Source: Verrucomicrobiia bacterium
GTDB lineage: Bacteria; Verrucomicrobiota; Verrucomicrobiia; Limisphaerales; Pedosphaeraceae
NCBI GenBank assembly: GCA_036268055.1
Contig: DATAUW010000016.1
Span: 186,001 to 250,000 of the forward strand
Length of the DNA stretch: 64,000 nt
Direction: 5' to 3'
Positions within the stretch are counted from its first letter, which is position 1. Every line of letters starts with the position of its first letter. This document shows positions 26,836 to 35,441 of the stretch, in pieces. The notes below the pieces were generated by a model, which was given only the letters and a program-made list of their open reading frames with translations, did no database searches and was not told the origin of the DNA. Both the position numbers and the translations under genes were made by a program.

Positions 26836-28089
26836 TTATTTGCCGACGAGCGTTTGTTGGAAGTCGTCGAGATGACCGGCGAAAACCTGCGGCTTGAAAT
26901 CGGGAATGGATTGCGCGTCCTTGAACAACTGATTGAGCGGCGCGTCGAGACGCTTGCTGGTATCGGGATCTCCGAGACCGGCAATGAGGCGGTCAAGCGC
27001 AAGAACGAGTCGCTCCGCGCGGCGGGCCACGGTGGAATGCTTGACATTGGGTTCGCGGAAACTCGCGCCCGTCGCCGCTAGAGCTTCGAGGCATTTGCGC
27101 GCATCGGCGGCAGACCAGGAACTGGCCGCAGCCTGCTTCGCGAAATCATCCGCCCACTTTTGTGCGGCGGCGGCGTTATTGGGAGTGACATCGCCAGAGA
27201 TGGAAGCGGATGGCAGCGCGTCGTTGCCTTTCGCAGCGGACTCGAGCAACCAGAGCACGGCCGAAGTCCGCGCCTCGGCATGTTCACCGGCCACAGTTTC
27301 GCGGGATAATTGCCAGCTCATTTCGCGCAGCCCAACAGCCTGGCCGACCAGCCAGGTTTGCGGTCCCGACCAATTAGGCTTCTCTCGCCAATGCTTGGGC
27401 TCGGTGACCGATTGGCCGTCGAGTTCAAAAATCAATTCGGGATGGCCAGCTTTAAGAATATCACCATCCACATTTTGATGGCAGGCCACGCAACTATTCG
27501 CACGTGTATAAATATTGTCGAGGTCGCGCATGCCGGCGTGAACGCGATCAGCGTGGGTCCAATCAGGACGCGTGTGACCGAGCAGCCATTTTTGCGCGGG
27601 GCCGTGACAATTTTCGCACGAAACACCGGAAGCAGGATCGAGCGCCTTCACGAGCGCGTCGGTATTGGCAATCGTTTGAAAAGGTTCGTGGCAAACCGTA
27701 CAGCGTGAACTCACCGTGGGATCGCTGATTTTTAAATTGTCCGCTATGCGGGCGGAACGCGCGCCGGTGAGCGTGGCGAAGGAGCGCGTATGCACATCCA
27801 ATTTTTTCCAGCGAATGGTTTGATCGTGTTTTTCACCCGCACCCCCGTGGCAGCCGGAAGAAGCGCATGAAGACTCACCGAGAAAGGCACTCGCGGCAGA
27901 AGCATCCGTATCGGTGTTCTGCGCGTAGAGTGAAGTGGTGCGCGCCGTGAAAAGGGTCAGGAATAAACTGGCAAGCCAGACTGTGCTGGTATGATTGCGT
28001 CCCCAGTTTAGGCTTAGAAAAAGTCTTAAACTAAATCGTTTACTCCGCACGCTGGGTTTGTTAATAAACAAGCCAAGACAAAAATGCAA
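26836..28089 (-). CDS. Secreted tetrahaem cytochrome c
   Basis: A 417-residue exported cytochrome. After a signal sequence ending near ARTTSLYAQ (about residue 57) come four haem motifs: CASSGCH (75-81, with four residues between the cysteines), CTVCH (130), CENCH (158) and CVACH (200). The later AGHPELIFELDG and the helical C-terminal half resemble c554-like multihaem proteins. No ATG is available; the frame opens at TTG 28089, 28 nt from the divergent reductase gene, while GTG 28050 would be a shorter start. The neighbouring redox cluster suggests that it exchanges electrons with it. Confidence 0.85.
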   Translation of the reverse strand: MHFCLGLFINKPSVRSKRFSLRLFLSLNWGRNHTSTVWLASLFLTLFTARTTSLYAQNTDTDASAASAFLGESSCASSGCHGGAGEKHDQTIRWKKLDVHTRSFATLTGARSARIADNLKISDPTVSSRCTVCHEPFQTIANTDALVKALDPASGVSCENCHGPAQKWLLGHTRPDWTHADRVHAGMRDLDNIYTRANSCVACHQNVDGDILKAGHPELIFELDGQSVTEPKHWREKPNWSGPQTWLVGQAVGLREMSWQLSRETVAGEHAEARTSAVLWLLESAAKGNDALPSASISGDVTPNNAAAAQKWADDFAKQAAASSWSAADARKCLEALAATGASFREPNVKHSTVARRAERLVLALDRLIAGLGDPDTSKRLDAPLNQLFKDAQSIPDFKPQVFAGHLDDFQQTLVGK

Positions 28090-28117: not shown

Positions 28118-29407
28118 ATGCAAAAAATCTTAGAGGGTAATCCGCTTCTGGTTATAGGGTACATTTTCCTGGGGATGCTTTTTGCGCAAGGATGTTTGAT
28201 TCTGTGGGGCACACTCAAACGAGTTTATTATCAGCAGGAGCATCACCGTCTTTCCCGCGAGCGGCTTCAGTTGCAGGTCAAGGCCGCCGCATTGCAGTGC
28301 CGTGAAGTCGAGGCAAATAAAGCGCTCTGGAACGGTTTTAGAAAATTTCGCGTTGAAAAAAAATTCACTGAGTGCAAAGGCGTCTGCTCTTTTTATCTCA
28401 AGCCGCACGACGGCAAACCGCTGCCCGCCTACAAGCCCGGCCAGTATATTACCTTTCAATTAAATATTCCCGGCGTGCCCAAGCCGGTGGTGCGTTGTTA
28501 CTCGCTTTCAGATAGTCCGCATCGGGGCGATTACTATCGCGTTACGATAAAAAAAGAACCAGCGCCGCCAGACAAACCCGAACTTAAGCCCGGCGTGGCC
28601 TCGAGTTATTTCGTGGACGTGGTAAAAGAGGGCGACATCCTCGACGTCAAGGCGCCGGCGGGAAATTTCTTTCTCGACATGGCAAAGGAAACTCCGGTCG
28701 TGCTCGTGAGCGGCGGCGTGGGTGTCACGCCGATGTTGAGTATGGCGCATGCGATCAACGCGGCGGGAGCACGGCGCGAAATTTATTTTTTCTTCGGCGC
28801 GCGCAACCACGACGAGCACATCCATAAAGAGGAAATGCTCCGGCTGGCTAAGGAGTATGAGAATGTCCACATGCATGTCTGCTACAGCCGCCCGGATACG
28901 GCGCGCGACAAAGCCGGCGTGGATTATCAGCATGAAGGCCGCGTCTCGGTGGAATTGTTCAAGGAAGTTTTGCCTTCCAATAATTTCGATTATTTCCTTT
29001 GCGGCAACGGCGCGTTCATGAAGTCTATTTCCGAAGGTCTCGAAGCGTGGGGCGTGCCGGACAAGAACGTGAACTTTGAAGCGTTCGGTCCCGCGACGGT
29101 GAAGAAAAAAGCCGCTCCCGCTCCCGCCGCGGTTACGGGTGCGCCCGCCGCCGGCATCGCCGTTACTTTCAGCAAGACTGGCAAGACCTGTGAATGGTCG
29201 CCCGGAGGCGGATCGCTTTTGGATTTCGCTTTGGAACAGGGAGTGCGCATTGATTCCGGTTGCCGCGCGGGAAGCTGTGGGAGTTGCCTCGTCGCCATTA
29301 AATCCGGCGACGTGGAGTATGTAAGTGAAGCAGGGGAAAAGCCCGAAACAGGTTCGTGTCTGACGTGCATCTGCAAGCCGAAGGGACCGCTGGTCCTGGA
29401 CGCCTGA
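28118..29407 (+). CDS. Membrane-anchored FAD/NAD(P)H reductase with C-terminal 2Fe-2S domain
   Basis: A 429-residue protein: one membrane helix at about 10-30 and a coiled stretch, then a ferredoxin-NADP reductase-like module with the FAD motif RCYSLSDSP (about 128-136) and the nucleotide-binding motif GGVGVTPMLS (about 193-202), an Ala/Pro linker (about 328-345), and a plant-type ferredoxin with C382, C387, C390 and C417. This resembles NqrF and flavohaemoprotein-type reductases rearranged with the iron-sulfur domain last. It is the first gene of a + strand redox set, divergent from the tetrahaem cytochrome, and probably feeds electrons from NAD(P)H into it. Confidence 0.85.
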   Translation: MQKILEGNPLLVIGYIFLGMLFAQGCLILWGTLKRVYYQQEHHRLSRERLQLQVKAAALQCREVEANKALWNGFRKFRVEKKFTECKGVCSFYLKPHDGKPLPAYKPGQYITFQLNIPGVPKPVVRCYSLSDSPHRGDYYRVTIKKEPAPPDKPELKPGVASSYFVDVVKEGDILDVKAPAGNFFLDMAKETPVVLVSGGVGVTPMLSMAHAINAAGARREIYFFFGARNHDEHIHKEEMLRLAKEYENVHMHVCYSRPDTARDKAGVDYQHEGRVSVELFKEVLPSNNFDYFLCGNGAFMKSISEGLEAWGVPDKNVNFEAFGPATVKKKAAPAPAAVTGAPAAGIAVTFSKTGKTCEWSPGGGSLLDFALEQGVRIDSGCRAGSCGSCLVAIKSGDVEYVSEAGEKPETGSCLTCICKPKGPLVLDA

Positions 29408-29432: not shown

Positions 29433-31160
29433 ATGGCTTCCGTAACCGCTTTAGTGCTGGACCGGCCGCAACGCTGGGACAACGCTTTTGATTCCGAAAT
29501 GACGCCGGAAATGGTGGCGCGCCTGCTTCAGTTGGCGCCTTTCCGGGACATGAAAGCGGAAAATTTTCCCAAGCGCCTCGCCCTCTCGGATATTCTTCAA
29601 CACGACGTTCGCATCCGCCGTTTTGACAAGGACGAAATCGTGGTGCGTGAAGGCGATTACGGCACGTCGGCGTTCATGATCATGTCCGGCAAGGTGCGCG
29701 TAGTGCTCGGCAATCTGCCGGCCTCGGTGCTGGGCCGCCGTGAACCGACGCGCAAAGGGATCTTTAGAGTGCTGGCGCAGATTTTTACGTCGCGCAAGGA
29801 ACCGGAAAGTTTCCGACCTTCGCAACTCAAGCAGGACAGCCGTGTCGCCGCGCGCAAGGGGCAAAACGATGAAGTGAAAGTTTTTCTCCAAGACGTGCCG
29901 CGCATCCTCGATGAAAACAAAACGGCCATCCTCGAACCGGGAGAATTTTTTGGTGAAATCGCCGCGCTGAGCCGCATGCCGCGCACGGCGACTGTTTTTG
30001 CGGACACCGACGAGACCGAATTGCTCGAAATCCGCTGGCAGGGTTTGCGCGATCTGATGCGCTATGACAACGGCCTGCACGAACACATAGATGCCATCTA
30101 TAGGAAGCGCGCCCTAGCCGCGGCCTTGCGCGAGATCCCATTTTTCCGCCAGTTGACCGACAGTGAATTGCAGCAGGTGATGGCTCAAACCGAGTTCGGC
30201 ACTTACGGCGAATATGACTGGTCGGGTGAATACAAGCGCCTCGCGCAATCCGGAAGCGGCAGCCAGAAACCGGAAGCGGTGATTGCGGCGGAAGGCGATT
30301 ATCCCAATGGCGTGGTCATTATTCGCGCGGGCTTCGGGCGGCTCAGCCAGAAATTTGGCAATGGCAACCGCACCTTGAATTACCTCGGCGCGGGCCAGGC
30401 CTATGGTTTCGAGGAAATCGCACACAACTGGCAAAATCCCAAAGCGCCCGTCGCCCTGCAACATTCCCTGCGTGTCATCGGCTACACCCACGTGCTGATC
30501 GTGCCGACGGCGGTCATGGAATCCATTGTCCTGCCGACCTTGCCAAAGCGTCTCATGCCGGACCCGGTGGTCGAGCGCGTGGATCGCGAAATAGTCGCTC
30601 CCGAGCCGGTGGATGCAGCCGCCAAAATCGGCGCGGACACCTTGGAATTTTTGACCGAGAATCGTTTCTTCAACGGCACGGCTTCCATGGTGATTGACCT
30701 GGATCGCTGTACGCGTTGTGACGATTGCGTGCGTGCGTGTTCGACGGCGCATGATAACAATCCGCGTTTTCTCCGCCACGGCCCGTCAAATGGAAATATT
30801 ATGGTCGCCAATGCGTGCATGCATTGTGTGGACCCGGTTTGCATGATCGGCTGTCCGACCGGCGCGATCCACCGCGATGCCTTCGGCGGCCAAGTCGTGA
30901 TCAACCCGATCACCTGCATTGGTTGTCGCGCCTGTTACAATAATTGTCCCTACGACGCCATCCGCATGGTGGAGATCCGCGATACCTCCGGCGAATTCAT
31001 GGTGGACCAGGACATGAAGCCGATCAGCAAGGCGACCAAATGCGATTTGTGCGTCGAACAAATGACTGGTCCGGCGTGCGAACGGGCGTGCCCGCACGGT
31101 GCGCTCAAACGCGTAAACCTTAACGAACTGGATGCGTTCGCCAAGTGGTTGAAACGATGA
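29433..31160 (+). CDS. Cyclic-nucleotide-binding-like domains fused to a four-cluster ferredoxin
   Basis: A 575-residue protein. Residues about 40-220 form a cNMP-binding-like domain, split by a 45-residue basic insertion; its phosphate-binding segment FGEIAALSRMPRTATV keeps the Glu and Arg typical of ligand binding. A second, more divergent domain follows at about 225-375. Residues 415-575 form a ferredoxin of the DmsB/HybA type with four cysteine groups: CTRCDDCVRAC (426), CMHCVDPVCMIGC, CIGCRACYNNC and CDLCVEQMTGPACERAC. No membrane segment is seen, so it is probably cytoplasmic. Its TGA overlaps the next ATG (ATGA). Such fusions exist in databases, but their role is not known to me. Confidence 0.85.
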   Translation: MASVTALVLDRPQRWDNAFDSEMTPEMVARLLQLAPFRDMKAENFPKRLALSDILQHDVRIRRFDKDEIVVREGDYGTSAFMIMSGKVRVVLGNLPASVLGRREPTRKGIFRVLAQIFTSRKEPESFRPSQLKQDSRVAARKGQNDEVKVFLQDVPRILDENKTAILEPGEFFGEIAALSRMPRTATVFADTDETELLEIRWQGLRDLMRYDNGLHEHIDAIYRKRALAAALREIPFFRQLTDSELQQVMAQTEFGTYGEYDWSGEYKRLAQSGSGSQKPEAVIAAEGDYPNGVVIIRAGFGRLSQKFGNGNRTLNYLGAGQAYGFEEIAHNWQNPKAPVALQHSLRVIGYTHVLIVPTAVMESIVLPTLPKRLMPDPVVERVDREIVAPEPVDAAAKIGADTLEFLTENRFFNGTASMVIDLDRCTRCDDCVRACSTAHDNNPRFLRHGPSNGNIMVANACMHCVDPVCMIGCPTGAIHRDAFGGQVVINPITCIGCRACYNNCPYDAIRMVEIRDTSGEFMVDQDMKPISKATKCDLCVEQMTGPACERACPHGALKRVNLNELDAFAKWLKR

Positions 31161-31981
31161 ATTCATTTTCGAAACAACGGTGGCGGGGAATTGTTTTGCT
31201 TCTGATTTTTTCTGCGGCCTGCATTGCGGCTTACTTCAAATACGGCCCGGTATTTCCGCGCTTGAGCTACTTTACCGGCGCGCTGCTCTTCGCCGTGATG
31301 GTGATCCTCACGCTTTATAATGGCCGCAAAAAACTGCCGTTTCTTCCGCTTGGCACTTCCGAAGGCTGGCTGCAATTCCACATCTACGCCGGATTTTTTA
31401 CAGCAGTGTTGTTTGTGCTGCACATCCGGTTTCGCTGGCCCACCGGCTGGTTCGAGATCGTGTTGTTCACACTGTATGTGCTGGTGACGTTGAGTGGCAT
31501 TGCGGGCTTGATCGTCACGCGCATGATTCCCAAACGTCTGACCACGCGCGGCGGCGAAGTTTTATATGAGCGCATCCCGGTTATTCGCGCGATGTTGCAG
31601 GAGCAGGCCGAGATGCTGGCCTTGAAATCCATGCCGGCGATGCACTCGACGACCATCGCGGATTTTTATACGCGTTATCTGGACGACTTCTTTGACGGCC
31701 CGCGAAATTTGTCGCTGCACATCTTTGAAGTCCGGCGTCCGCTCAATGTGTTGCAAAATCGCATCACCGACCTGAGCCGTTATCTCAACGCGCAGGAACA
31801 GGAGACGCTCAACAAAATCTCAACGCTCGTCCGGCAGAAGGATGGCCTGGATTATCATCAATCGTTGCAAACGCTATTGCGCGGCTGGCTGTTCGTTCAC
31901 ATCCCACTGACGTATAGCCTGATGCTGTTTTCGATCATGCACATTGTGTTGGTCTATGCTTTCTCGGGAGGAGCCCGGTGA
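31157..31981 (+). CDS. Cytochrome b-like integral membrane protein
   Basis: A 274-residue protein with about five membrane segments (residues ~9-27, 35-53, 77-95, 102-125 and 245-270) and a 100-residue helical loop between the fourth and the last. Histidines sit inside helices (FHIYAGFFTAVLFVLHIRF, FVHIPLTYSLMLFSIMHIVL) at spacings suited to bis-His haem b. It may be the quinone- or haem-bearing link between the cytoplasmic ferredoxin and the decahaem cytochrome. ATGA overlap upstream and GTGA overlap downstream imply tight coupling. Confidence 0.7.
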   Translation: MNSFSKQRWRGIVLLLIFSAACIAAYFKYGPVFPRLSYFTGALLFAVMVILTLYNGRKKLPFLPLGTSEGWLQFHIYAGFFTAVLFVLHIRFRWPTGWFEIVLFTLYVLVTLSGIAGLIVTRMIPKRLTTRGGEVLYERIPVIRAMLQEQAEMLALKSMPAMHSTTIADFYTRYLDDFFDGPRNLSLHIFEVRRPLNVLQNRITDLSRYLNAQEQETLNKISTLVRQKDGLDYHQSLQTLLRGWLFVHIPLTYSLMLFSIMHIVLVYAFSGGAR

Positions 31982-33699
31982 AAGACCAGTTGCCTTCGCC
32001 TGATCCCGATTCCAGCCATTATGTGCGGCCCACGCAGCAGTGGATTTGTGGCAAGGCGGCCGAAGGCCAGAGCTGCCGCATCGGCCCGGATTGCCACGGT
32101 AATTGCCGTGCCGTTTCTGAATGCGCGCCGGTGCTCGAAGTCAAGCCGGGCGACGCCAAGGGCCGTTACAAATGCACGCGCCCGCCTGAATACGGCGGCC
32201 CTTGCGAAAATGGCCCGCTGCCCAATGGCAGTTGCGGACGCCCCATCACCCGTTGCCAGCCAATCCGCAGTCTGCGCAACCGCCGCAAGGTGGTCACGAG
32301 TTTCATAACGATGTTGACGGTCGCGCTGCTGCTCGTCGCCATGGGTGGCGAAAAACGCTGGAACTTTATTAGCCCAGGAAAAATTTCGTCGCAACATTCC
32401 GGTTCAGGGTTTTCAGAAGCCTTCGCGTGGATGCATTCTGGCGAAGCCGCGACTGATTCCAGTTGCGCCGCCTGCCACGTTAGCGCGCGCGCGAAATCCG
32501 CCGGATGGGTAGTCACCGCACTCGAATCCAATCCAGGCCCATTGCATCGCCACACGCTCGCGCTCATGACCGTGTCGGACATGACTTCGATAGATGAGAA
32601 TTGCGAGCGCTGCCATACCGGCCACACTTTTCACGAGCCGAACGTGGTGCAGGACCATTCCTGCTCCGCGTGCCATCGCGAGCACATGGGCTCGGGGCTG
32701 ATGAAAGCGCCGGCGGACAGCAACTGCGAAATCTGCCACGGCAACGCGAGCATCATGGAAGCATCCGCCGCGAAAGGAGCTACTCTATCGCCGGCTCTGT
32801 TTAATTTCCGCCCTGACAACGGGCGCAATGTTTTTCACGCCCCGCGTCCGAAGGAAGGTTACACCAAAGTCATTCATTCCTTCGCAACCGACCATCCGGA
32901 ATTCCAAATCATCGCGGACAGGTTGCAGGATCCCGACTCGCTCAAGTTCAATCACCAAAAGCATCTGACCTCGCCCACGATTCCGCTGGTGAACGGCCAT
33001 AAATTGGAGTGCGTGGATTGCCATAAACTTGACTCGGCTGGGCATTACCGGCAATCCATCACGTTCGAGCAAAATTGCCGCCAATGTCACTCGCTGCAAT
33101 TTGACACGCACAACCCCGACCTTGCAGTGCCCCACGGCGACTCAGCGTTCGTGCGCGATTTCCTCCGCAGCTTGCCGGTGCAATACGCAGAATATGGCCT
33201 TCATAAAAGGGGCATCGTCGCGAAGGCCGACCTTGATGATTTCGTCCAACAACAGATGAAGCAAATCCGCGACGACGAAATCAGCGGCGAAGACCTCGAG
33301 CAAAAAGTTTTCTTCGGCGATTCCAAACAACAGCGCGCGCAGTTTCCCGCCTGCACTTACTGTCACGAAGTGAAACCGAATGGCGATGGCGCGCCGATCG
33401 TCACCAAGCCCGTGATCATGGATCGCTGGATGGTGCGCGGCAGCTTCGATCACTCAAAGCATCTAACGGTCGAATGTATGAAATGCCACGAAGTTTTGCA
33501 CAGCACGCAAACTTCTGATGTGTTGCTGCCATCCAAAGCAACATGCGTGGAATGCCACAGTCCCAAAGGTGGCGTGGCGAATGGTTGCTCGACTTGCCAC
33601 AGTTACCATGCGCCCTCCAATGGAACGCAAGTCCAGGTCAAGGCCATGCCCGGCGACCATGCGACGAGCGGTATGATAAGGTTGGCGGAGCAGAAGTAG
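31978..33699 (+). CDS. Decahaem cytochrome c with nine-cysteine N-terminal domain
   Basis: A 573-residue protein in three parts. Residues 1-100 hold nine cysteines (24, 33, 39, 43, 49, 66, 76, 86, 93) and many Gly/Pro, suggesting a cytoplasmic metal or Fe-S site. A membrane helix follows (about 105-123), preceded by RNRRK, which orients the N-terminus inside. The periplasmic part has ten CxxCH haem motifs at 163, 209, 229, 250, 345, 367, 459, 500, 523 and 537. The GTG start overlaps the previous stop. It is probably the terminal wire of the locus, able to pass electrons outward; the acceptor is unknown. Confidence 0.85.
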   Translation: MKDQLPSPDPDSSHYVRPTQQWICGKAAEGQSCRIGPDCHGNCRAVSECAPVLEVKPGDAKGRYKCTRPPEYGGPCENGPLPNGSCGRPITRCQPIRSLRNRRKVVTSFITMLTVALLLVAMGGEKRWNFISPGKISSQHSGSGFSEAFAWMHSGEAATDSSCAACHVSARAKSAGWVVTALESNPGPLHRHTLALMTVSDMTSIDENCERCHTGHTFHEPNVVQDHSCSACHREHMGSGLMKAPADSNCEICHGNASIMEASAAKGATLSPALFNFRPDNGRNVFHAPRPKEGYTKVIHSFATDHPEFQIIADRLQDPDSLKFNHQKHLTSPTIPLVNGHKLECVDCHKLDSAGHYRQSITFEQNCRQCHSLQFDTHNPDLAVPHGDSAFVRDFLRSLPVQYAEYGLHKRGIVAKADLDDFVQQQMKQIRDDEISGEDLEQKVFFGDSKQQRAQFPACTYCHEVKPNGDGAPIVTKPVIMDRWMVRGSFDHSKHLTVECMKCHEVLHSTQTSDVLLPSKATCVECHSPKGGVANGCSTCHSYHAPSNGTQVQVKAMPGDHATSGMIRLAEQK

Positions 33700-33775: not shown

Positions 33776-35353
33776 TCACAACGCCGGGTTGCGCGGGAAC
33801 TTGGCGTAGGGCAGACGGGCGTCACTGTAGAAAAAGTGGTCGGAACGGATGTTGACGGGCGCGAGAAAATTTGCGGTGCCGGAAGCAGTAATAATATCGT
33901 CCTGATCCACGCCATCGCCTGACACGCCGATGGCACCGATCAACTGGCCGTTGCGATACAGCGGAAAACCGCCGGGGAAAATCGTGATGCCGTTTGGCAG
34001 ATTGGGATCAGGTGTTGCCAAAGCGGAACTGAGCACGACGCCATTGAGCGGATTCATCGCGCCAGCCGGGAAAAGCGAAAAGTGCTCTTGCATGCCCCAG
34101 AAAATTCCCGGTTCAGTGCCATTGAGGCCGGGCGGGAAAAATTCCTCGGCGAGGAAGCCGACGGCACGTGCCGAGAAAGCGTAATTGGTGCTGGAGAAAA
34201 ATACGGCAGTGCGGGCCTTCTGAACCGCAACATCCCAACTGAACATGGTCGCGCCTTTGGTGCGAATCGTGCCGAGCACGACTGGAGTGCCGCCGTCTAT
34301 GTTCGGATTATTGACCACGGTGATGAAGACTTGCGCCGCCTGGCCGCGAGGAAGGCGGATGCCCGCGCGGGTGGTGCGGGCACGATCGGCGGCGAGCGAA
34401 AGGATGCCGACGACTTCATTAGATGTAAGGCGCGCTGCTCCATTGATGTTGCCCACGAGCGGATCATCGCGAATTGGCTGGCGGATTTCGCACATCTGGC
34501 CTCCAAAAGTATTGGTCGGGTACGGGAAAAGCGGCGGCGAGGCCATCACTGCGTACGGAGCCACATGCTGATCAGGTAAACTGGCAAACGGCGTGACGGC
34601 GCCAAGGCTCGTGGTGCTGCTGACATAGGCCAGGCGGAAGCCATTGATGGTATCGTTGGAGCCAAAATAAATCGGGTCGGGCGAATAATCAGTCTCGGCG
34701 GCCAGAGCCACGTCTTCATCAATGGTTGGCGTTTGCACGTTTTGGATGGCGGTGGCGTCATCCATGTGAGAAACACCCACGCCGCCGACGAGATAATTGC
34801 TGACGTAAAGGGGAACGCCGCCGGGTGCGCCAGCGAGGCCGCCAGTCACCGGTTGTGGAACGCTTACGACATAATTAGAAGTCGCAGGACTGGCGACATT
34901 GGTGACGATACTGCCGGGACCTTTGATGCGATTGATGTCGGAGAATTGCAGGTTGGAGAAATTGACGCCAACGAGTGGGCCAGGGCCGGAATTTTGGACG
35001 TTGGGCGGAAAATTTTGTTGAACAATGAAACCCGCAGTGCGAGAGGTAAAGGCATGTTGATCACTACTGAGAAAGGAGGCAGTCCCGGCCTTCCCAATCG
35101 CAATCGCGAGAACAGCTTGCGACGGGGTGGTCCCATTAACCGACCAGACGCCACAGACGAAACCCTCCCGATCCACCACGGCGATAACACTATCGGGAGA
35201 GATGACTTTTGCGCGGGCAACTCCTTGTGCGATAACCTTTTGCACGTCGGACAATGCGAGTTGTGGAATGGGCTGAAAAAGACCGTATTGGGCAAAGCCC
35301 GGATAGGCTGCCAGCCCCAGACCAAAAACGATTGCCAACAAGCGTTTTATCAC
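33776..35353 (-). CDS. Secreted protein with two GlcG/HbpS-type haem-binding domains
   Basis: A 525-residue exported protein: signal peptide MIKRLLAIVFGLGLAAYPGFA, then two GlcG/HbpS (Haem_degrading, DUF336) domains. The first (about 34-215) has VIAVVDREGFVCGVWSV, AFTSRTAGFIVQ and GVPLYVSNYLVGGVGVS; the second (about 310-505) has the matching AFSARAVGFLAEE and FPLYRNGQLIGAIGVSGDG. The family binds haem or acts as glycolate-utilisation accessory; the function here is unproven. No ATG exists in the frame; GTG 35353 gives a proper signal peptide, and a TTG at 35431 is less likely. It converges on the decahaem cytochrome gene. Confidence 0.75.
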   Translation of the reverse strand: MIKRLLAIVFGLGLAAYPGFAQYGLFQPIPQLALSDVQKVIAQGVARAKVISPDSVIAVVDREGFVCGVWSVNGTTPSQAVLAIAIGKAGTASFLSSDQHAFTSRTAGFIVQQNFPPNVQNSGPGPLVGVNFSNLQFSDINRIKGPGSIVTNVASPATSNYVVSVPQPVTGGLAGAPGGVPLYVSNYLVGGVGVSHMDDATAIQNVQTPTIDEDVALAAETDYSPDPIYFGSNDTINGFRLAYVSSTTSLGAVTPFASLPDQHVAPYAVMASPPLFPYPTNTFGGQMCEIRQPIRDDPLVGNINGAARLTSNEVVGILSLAADRARTTRAGIRLPRGQAAQVFITVVNNPNIDGGTPVVLGTIRTKGATMFSWDVAVQKARTAVFFSSTNYAFSARAVGFLAEEFFPPGLNGTEPGIFWGMQEHFSLFPAGAMNPLNGVVLSSALATPDPNLPNGITIFPGGFPLYRNGQLIGAIGVSGDGVDQDDIITASGTANFLAPVNIRSDHFFYSDARLPYAKFPRNPAL

Positions 35354-35441
35354 CGCCAAAAGTGTGTGGCGGAAAAGAACTGGCGGCAAGTGCAAAGTTG
35401 GGTATGTTAGGTGCTGTTGAGAACATAGCAAAAATGAGAAG

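Follow-up and report, generated by a model that had tools for sequence, protein, structure and literature searches.

A conserved, putative cyclic-nucleotide-binding pocket in the predicted Fe-S subunit of a verrucomicrobial electron conduit related to PCC4

Electron conduits of PCC4 subgroup II, as outlined by He et al. 2017 (PMC5566968), comprise a porin, cytochromes with 4, 5 and 10 haems and a protein with five transmembrane segments (5-TM protein) in which the motif WX3HX13H occurs twice and an SGxxG motif lies in TM4. In that outline, a gene given as 'Fe-S cluster (pfam13247)' is located directly upstream of the 5-TM protein gene; neither cyclic nucleotides nor cyclic-nucleotide domains are mentioned in the main text. 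With regard to domain architecture, Table 1 of Kannan et al. 2007 (PMC2246266) lists a family, 'Bact_Pyrredox', in which tandem cyclic-nucleotide-binding (CNB) domains are fused to a redox enzyme, as is also the case in the CNB-CNB-ferredoxin protein described here (hereafter CNBFd), and which suggests nucleotide control of redox chemistry. The redox partner in Bact_Pyrredox is an N-terminal pyridine nucleotide-disulphide oxidoreductase, whereas that of CNBFd is a C-terminal four-cluster ferredoxin belonging to a predicted membrane electron conduit. Kannan et al. do not use the word 'ferredoxin' in their main text.

CNB-gated channels such as MloK1 and SthK share with the first CNB domain of CNBFd (CNB-A) both the fold and a canonical cassette; these channels gate ions via a fused pore, whereas in CNBFd the fusion partner is an electron carrier and the membrane component is a subunit of its own. 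Four-cluster ferredoxins of the DmsB/HybA/HydN type work with molybdenum enzymes or hydrogenases, and have four Cys motifs and sequence similarity in common with CNBFd. They are not known to carry CNB domains, which sets them apart from CNBFd.

Gene content of the locus and its porin-less relatives

CNBFd is encoded at positions 29433..31160 (+) of the window, a term used here for the whole stretch of 64,000 nucleotides analysed from a Verrucomicrobiia genome. The gene is part of a tightly spaced operon in the order reductase, CNBFd, 5-TM protein and decahaem cytochrome, next to which a tetrahaem cytochrome gene is oriented divergently. The reductase (28118..29407, +) is FAD/NAD(P)H-binding and carries a 2Fe-2S domain at its C-terminus and a single hydrophobic segment near its N-terminus (residues 10-28); homologues of it accompany most CNBFd loci. 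The CNBFd gene lies directly upstream of, and overlaps, that of the inner-membrane protein (31145..31981, +), a likely di-haem b protein with five hydrophobic segments, SGIAG in the fourth of these and two W-x3-H-x13-H motifs (W75/H79/H93 and W248/H252/H266) that are kept in 79-80 of 81 sequences. It is followed by a membrane-anchored decahaem cytochrome c (31978..33699, +) composed of an N-terminal module with 8 Cys, a hydrophobic segment (residues 105-123) and 10 CxxCH motifs. The divergent tetrahaem cytochrome (26836..28089, -) belongs to the c554 family and displays three CxxCH motifs and one CX4CH motif.

The window locus and PCC4 subgroup II are alike in having the Fe-S gene upstream of a 5-TM protein with two motifs, 4- and 10-haem cytochromes and a further redox gene; they differ in that the window locus has neither a porin nor a pentahaem protein and that its tetrahaem gene is divergent, with a CX4CH motif. 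At other loci, the same set of genes was found together with a pentahaem protein and an outer-membrane beta-barrel-like protein that has no Pfam match. Based on gene content, CNBFd very probably corresponds to the 'Fe-S cluster (pfam13247)' subunit of a conduit of the PCC4 subgroup II type.

The N-terminal region of the decahaem cytochrome (31978-32289) presumably forms a cytoplasmic module, whose eight cysteines (C24, C33, C43, C49, C66, C76, C86 and C93) are invariant in 78/78 relatives. No Pfam match was obtained over 31978-32289, and the module is absent from a member of the distant clade described below (L094). A metal or cluster held by this module could connect the periplasmic haems with the cytoplasmic side.

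No porin and no pentahaem cytochrome gene was detected in the 64 kb window, nor in the available flanks of any of the 25 window-type loci, the window included, and for this reason the locus is termed here a porin-less relative of PCC4 rather than a member. Among loci of the other type, a porin was seen in 30 of 49, several of these loci being cut by contig ends. The first haem motif of the tetrahaem protein, CX4CH, has both Cys in all 25 window-type loci, and a single change on the tree, obtained by a quick method, separates the two types. The genome of the window contains a second locus (L091) that is complete and PCC4-like, with all the listed PCC4 features, including a 5-haem cytochrome and a porin-like beta-barrel gene which is the only porin of this type in that genome.

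Three further observations relate to these loci. A protein with two HbpS-like (PF03928) stretches is encoded beside the operon (33776..35431, -); it adjoins the operon in many verrucomicrobial loci and occurs near it in 15 of the 25 window-type loci, its membership of the system being unproven. One locus labelled Acetobacteraceae (L008) encodes a protein 82% identical to that of the window in a verrucomicrobial gene arrangement, and its genome is probably mislabelled or misbinned. Finally, two ORFs lie downstream of a porin-less operon (L100:13371-18999): the product of one (807 aa) has a weak alginate-export match, and the other (1066 aa) has 10 CxxCH; the two may possibly represent a different porin-cytochrome pair.

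The CNBFd protein and the pocket of its first CNB domain

The CNBFd gene has an ATG start and encodes 575 aa. The presence of two CNB domains and a ferredoxin in one chain, first proposed by a sequence-only reading of this DNA, was confirmed by Pfam on the 575 aa ORF and is further delineated by alignment and a structure model: CNB-A occupies residues ~45-232, the second domain (CNB-B) residues ~233-372 and the four-cluster ferredoxin part residues ~404-575. In Pfam, the cNMP_binding model matches CNBFd at 5.9e-23 in three stretches, and Fer4-type models match it as well (Fer4_7 at 1.6e-12, PF13247 at 9.5e-10). A genome scan detected 186 relatives, from which 80 loci were kept, with 45-82% identity to CNBFd over the best segment. 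A stray or chance ORF is ruled out by the near full-length conservation found in these 80 loci. No match to CNBFd was obtained at E 1e-30 among 72,556 plasmid records.

The ferredoxin part contains 16 cysteines in four motifs (residues 422-575; 30696..31157, +), each of which is invariant in 57/57 aligned sequences, so that four [4Fe-4S] sites are expected. In NCBIfam it lies near AegA, HydN, DmsB and HybA, every curated cut-off being missed by far; the DmsB model (TIGR02951), for instance, yields 58.7 bits against a curated cut-off of 214.1. That CNBFd would be the DmsB/HybA subunit of a molybdoenzyme or hydrogenase was rejected because of these missed cut-offs and because no such catalytic gene occurs among the Pfam-scanned neighbours in the window.

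The phosphate-binding cassette of CNB-A spans residues 173-184 (29949..29984, +) and has the canonical form, F-G-E followed by P-R. The intact FGE...PRTATV segment reported by the sequence-only reading is indeed found, as F173-G-E175-I-A-A-L-S-R-M-P-R184-T-A-T-V. By eye, the pattern F-G-E-x-A-A-L ... P-R-T resembles the PKG consensus, GELALLYNDPRTATVIA, which is given in Table 1 of Kannan et al. (PMC2246266) and contains PRTATV. That reading had also named loss of the Glu and Arg in orthologues as evidence against itself; such loss was looked for and not seen, since E175 and R184, as well as G174, occur in all of 109 distinct sequences, with F173 in 108. These sequences correspond to 102 from a main group and 7 from a distant clade (L124-L130), and include those added by scans of the phylum (16/335 genomes, E 1e-60) and of the class (33/236, E 1e-40); five duplicates and one fragment (L096) were left out of the count. 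This fragment is a broken second CNBFd copy in genome G121, split across two ORFs amid transposase-like ORFs, in which the cassette arginine is lost.

In the alignment of the window protein with 81 relatives, F173, G174, E175, A178, R181 and R184 are each present in 82/82 rows, and R184 is followed by Thr in 84 and by Ser in 11 of the 102 main-group sequences. Of the 19 positions that are invariant within residues 1-405, 6 fall in the 12-residue cassette (hypergeometric P ~4e-6). According to Kannan et al. (PMC2246266), the beta2-beta3 glycine varies together with the cassette Arg, which it couples to the B/C helix. This glycine, the equivalent of PKA Gly169, is G77 in CNB-A and is found in 107/109 sequences, the two others being a row truncated at a contig end, with a gap at this position (L041), and a distant-clade member with Asp (L125). 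Mean pairwise identity over 57 rows is 61% for residues 164-201, 46% for CNB-B, 36% for the insert described below and 68% for the ferredoxin. The conservation of the Glu and Arg could partly stem from that of CNBFd overall (median pairwise identity 51%), though the distant clade speaks against this. As judged from the sequences, ligand binding at CNB-A is well supported and is probable.

The situation is different for CNB-B, whose cassette is degenerate in the window protein and in the main group: position 342, judged by eye to be the counterpart of the cassette Arg, holds Leu, Phe or Met in 74/82 rows, and the position of the coupled Gly is occupied by Pro in 92/102 main-group sequences. The main group has no canonical cassette in this domain, yet W263, E281, R298 and R303 are invariant. 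In the seven members of the distant clade, both CNB domains have intact cassettes. CNB-B may serve as an internal control, its cassette having apparently decayed in the main group while that of CNB-A was kept in the same chain.

An unusual, basic insertion of 45 residues inside the first CNB domain had been described from the sequence alone. An insert is indeed present between beta4 and beta5 of CNB-A, but it comprises 71 residues (93-163), is only mildly basic and occurs throughout the family. In the window protein it carries a net charge of +6, with 40/505 stretches of the same length equally or more basic, and across 105 aligned rows its length ranges from 62 to 91 and its charge from -4 to +10 (median +4); in the seven distant members it is 55-59 residues long. 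The insert, modest in its basicity, is a family feature and does not single out the window protein.

A ligand-free AlphaFold model of CNBFd (mean pLDDT 76.5, pTM 0.65) was obtained, structure prediction having been proposed earlier as a check on the first CNB domain. CNB-A aligns with the CNB domains of MloK1 (Z 14.4-14.5, rmsd 2.5-2.6 over 130-133 residues, 24-25% identity), in support of the fold; matches to the CNB parts include PKA, PKG and MloK1 CNB structures, and hardly cover the ferredoxin part. The insert is modelled with low confidence (10-residue blocks at pLDDT 31-67), which weighs against claims on access to the pocket.

Signal input, rival readings and proposed mechanism

FHA domains precede the CNB domains in three of the five CNBFd proteins submitted to Pfam (L031, L049 and L054, but not L098 and L094), one of which (L049) has two of these phosphothreonine-binding domains. 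Class III cyclases, whose co-occurrence was examined in order to test the nucleotide hypothesis, have 6 matches in the window's own genome, at least one in 14/15 other CNBFd-positive genomes of the phylum and at least one in 31/32 genomes behind the loci of relatives, against a phylum background of 49/115 genomes (44/110 when five CNBFd-positive ones are removed). In the family richest in CNBFd, cyclases also occur in CNBFd-negative members; co-occurrence is non-discriminating and confounded by kinship. Neither a class III nor a class I cyclase was found in two CNBFd genomes, G121 (94% completeness) and G341 (genome of L036). With regard to gene location, a class III cyclase occurs in the flanks of 5/80 loci (L010, L033, L047, L072 and L073), and in the 32 loci for which genome counts were available, 4 cases, detected with a model built on one cyclase, were seen in the available flanks against 1.28 expected. 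In one of these genomes (L072), there is one class III match and a class III gene lies beside the operon; no cyclase was found in the whole window or at the second locus of its genome. The enrichment near the operon is weak.

Several readings of the CNB domains were weighed. If they were structural remnants that bind nothing, conservation of the Glu and Arg would reflect domain packing, and main-group CNB-B, with its degenerate cassette and Pro in place of the coupled Gly, is already in that state; the retention of E175/R184 in all 102 main-group and 7 distant sequences is the behaviour of a functional site, unlike that of CNB-B in the same chain, and makes this reading very unlikely. The ligand of CNB-A may instead be a structural cofactor required for assembly or for stability of the membrane complex, with CNBFd as a constitutive electron carrier. 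This would agree with the conservation in main-group relatives of the entire N-terminal half, insert and CNB-B included, and with the invariant positions that CNB-B keeps without its cassette, which imply that the CNB fold is used as a scaffold in CNBFd. Since the N-terminal FHA domains of some members point to signal input and the Gly77/Arg184 pair, tied to allostery by Kannan et al. (PMC2246266), is kept, this explanation is considered unlikely. It is also conceivable that the pocket senses another nucleotide or a phosphate-bearing metabolite, as a conserved cassette can bind another ligand, CNB domains that bind haem and other ligands are described in the same paper and two CNBFd genomes have no class III or class I cyclase, as indicated above. 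The cassette is, however, canonical and close to the PKG consensus, and the families with other ligands presented by Kannan et al. have altered cassettes, so that such a ligand appears improbable.

A further alternative concerns direction, with electrons flowing inward from extracellular Fe(II) or another donor and the nucleotide controlling uptake. This would match the proposal of He et al. 2017 (PMC5566968) that PCC4 takes electrons from a donor outside the cell and feeds them into the quinone pool, which was drawn from its occurrence in iron oxidisers. The scanned reductases (window and second locus of its genome) are of the NAD(P)H type, with homologues at most loci; this type of reductase and the resemblance of the membrane protein to ferric reductase/NOX speak for outward flow from NAD(P)H. 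Reduction of NAD(P)+ by electrons from Fe(II) is energetically uphill, and most host lineages are not known as iron oxidisers. Inward flow is regarded as somewhat unlikely.

The explanation that best accounts for the data, which we put forward tentatively and at close to even chances, is that CNBFd is the cytoplasmic Fe-S adaptor of a PCC4-type conduit and that a cyclic nucleotide at CNB-A governs its delivery of electrons. The four [4Fe-4S] clusters of CNBFd would carry electrons between the FAD/2Fe-2S NAD(P)H reductase, which is tethered to the membrane, and the di-haem protein of the inner membrane; the next carriers would be the decahaem protein, anchored in the membrane, and the tetrahaem cytochrome. 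From there, electrons would continue to the pentahaem/porin pair where the PCC4 locus is a full one, and in the porin-less variant of the window their final acceptor would be periplasmic or of another kind. The intact CNB-A pocket would be occupied by a 3',5'-cyclic nucleotide, and the usual CNB allostery, involving the cassette Arg, the beta2-beta3 Gly and the B/C helix, would shift CNB-B and the ferredoxin relative to their partners and turn electron delivery up or down. The sequences show the domains, the cluster ligands, the haem motifs, the operon and the conserved pocket, whereas the identity of the ligand, its binding, the gating and the direction of flow are inferred. Direct gating by a nucleotide, as advanced by the sequence-only reading, is partly supported in that the sequences favour ligand binding at CNB-A; gating itself is inferred and can be put forward only as a possibility, somewhat short of an even chance. 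That reading had missed both the membership of the conduit and the canonical CNB-B of distant relatives.

Implications for conduits of this type

The conduit was already known as a prediction, and the new part is the canonical, conserved CNB pocket in its Fe-S subunit. No description of a CNB-ferredoxin fusion in a conduit was found in the open-licence papers searched, nor of the conserved pocket in a conduit Fe-S subunit, the FHA-fused forms, the distant clade with two cassettes or the porin-less type. CNBFd conduits occur in records labelled Verrucomicrobia, Planctomycetota, Proteobacteria, SAR324, Nitrospinaceae and others. Cultured members include Oceanospirillum beijerinckii DSM 7166, named by He et al. 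2017 (PMC5566968), and Planctomycetales bacterium ZRK34, which was among the relatives detected by the genome scan.

The control of extracellular or trans-membrane electron transfer is usually discussed at the level of gene expression. The system may, on a reading that is possible but held with reserve, be an electron wire gated by a second messenger, in which a cyclic nucleotide would act directly on the Fe-S entry subunit, not via transcription, and would switch electron export (or uptake) on a signalling time scale. With a canonical nucleotide pocket in every intact member examined, direct and fast control of electron flux becomes testable. The CNB pocket also provides a telling feature for uncharacterised PCC4 systems, and CNBFd a natural part for nucleotide-switched bioelectronic circuits. 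If true, the gated wire would be the electron counterpart of the cyclic-nucleotide-gated ion channel, to which a phosphorylation input, via FHA domains, would have been added in some lineages.
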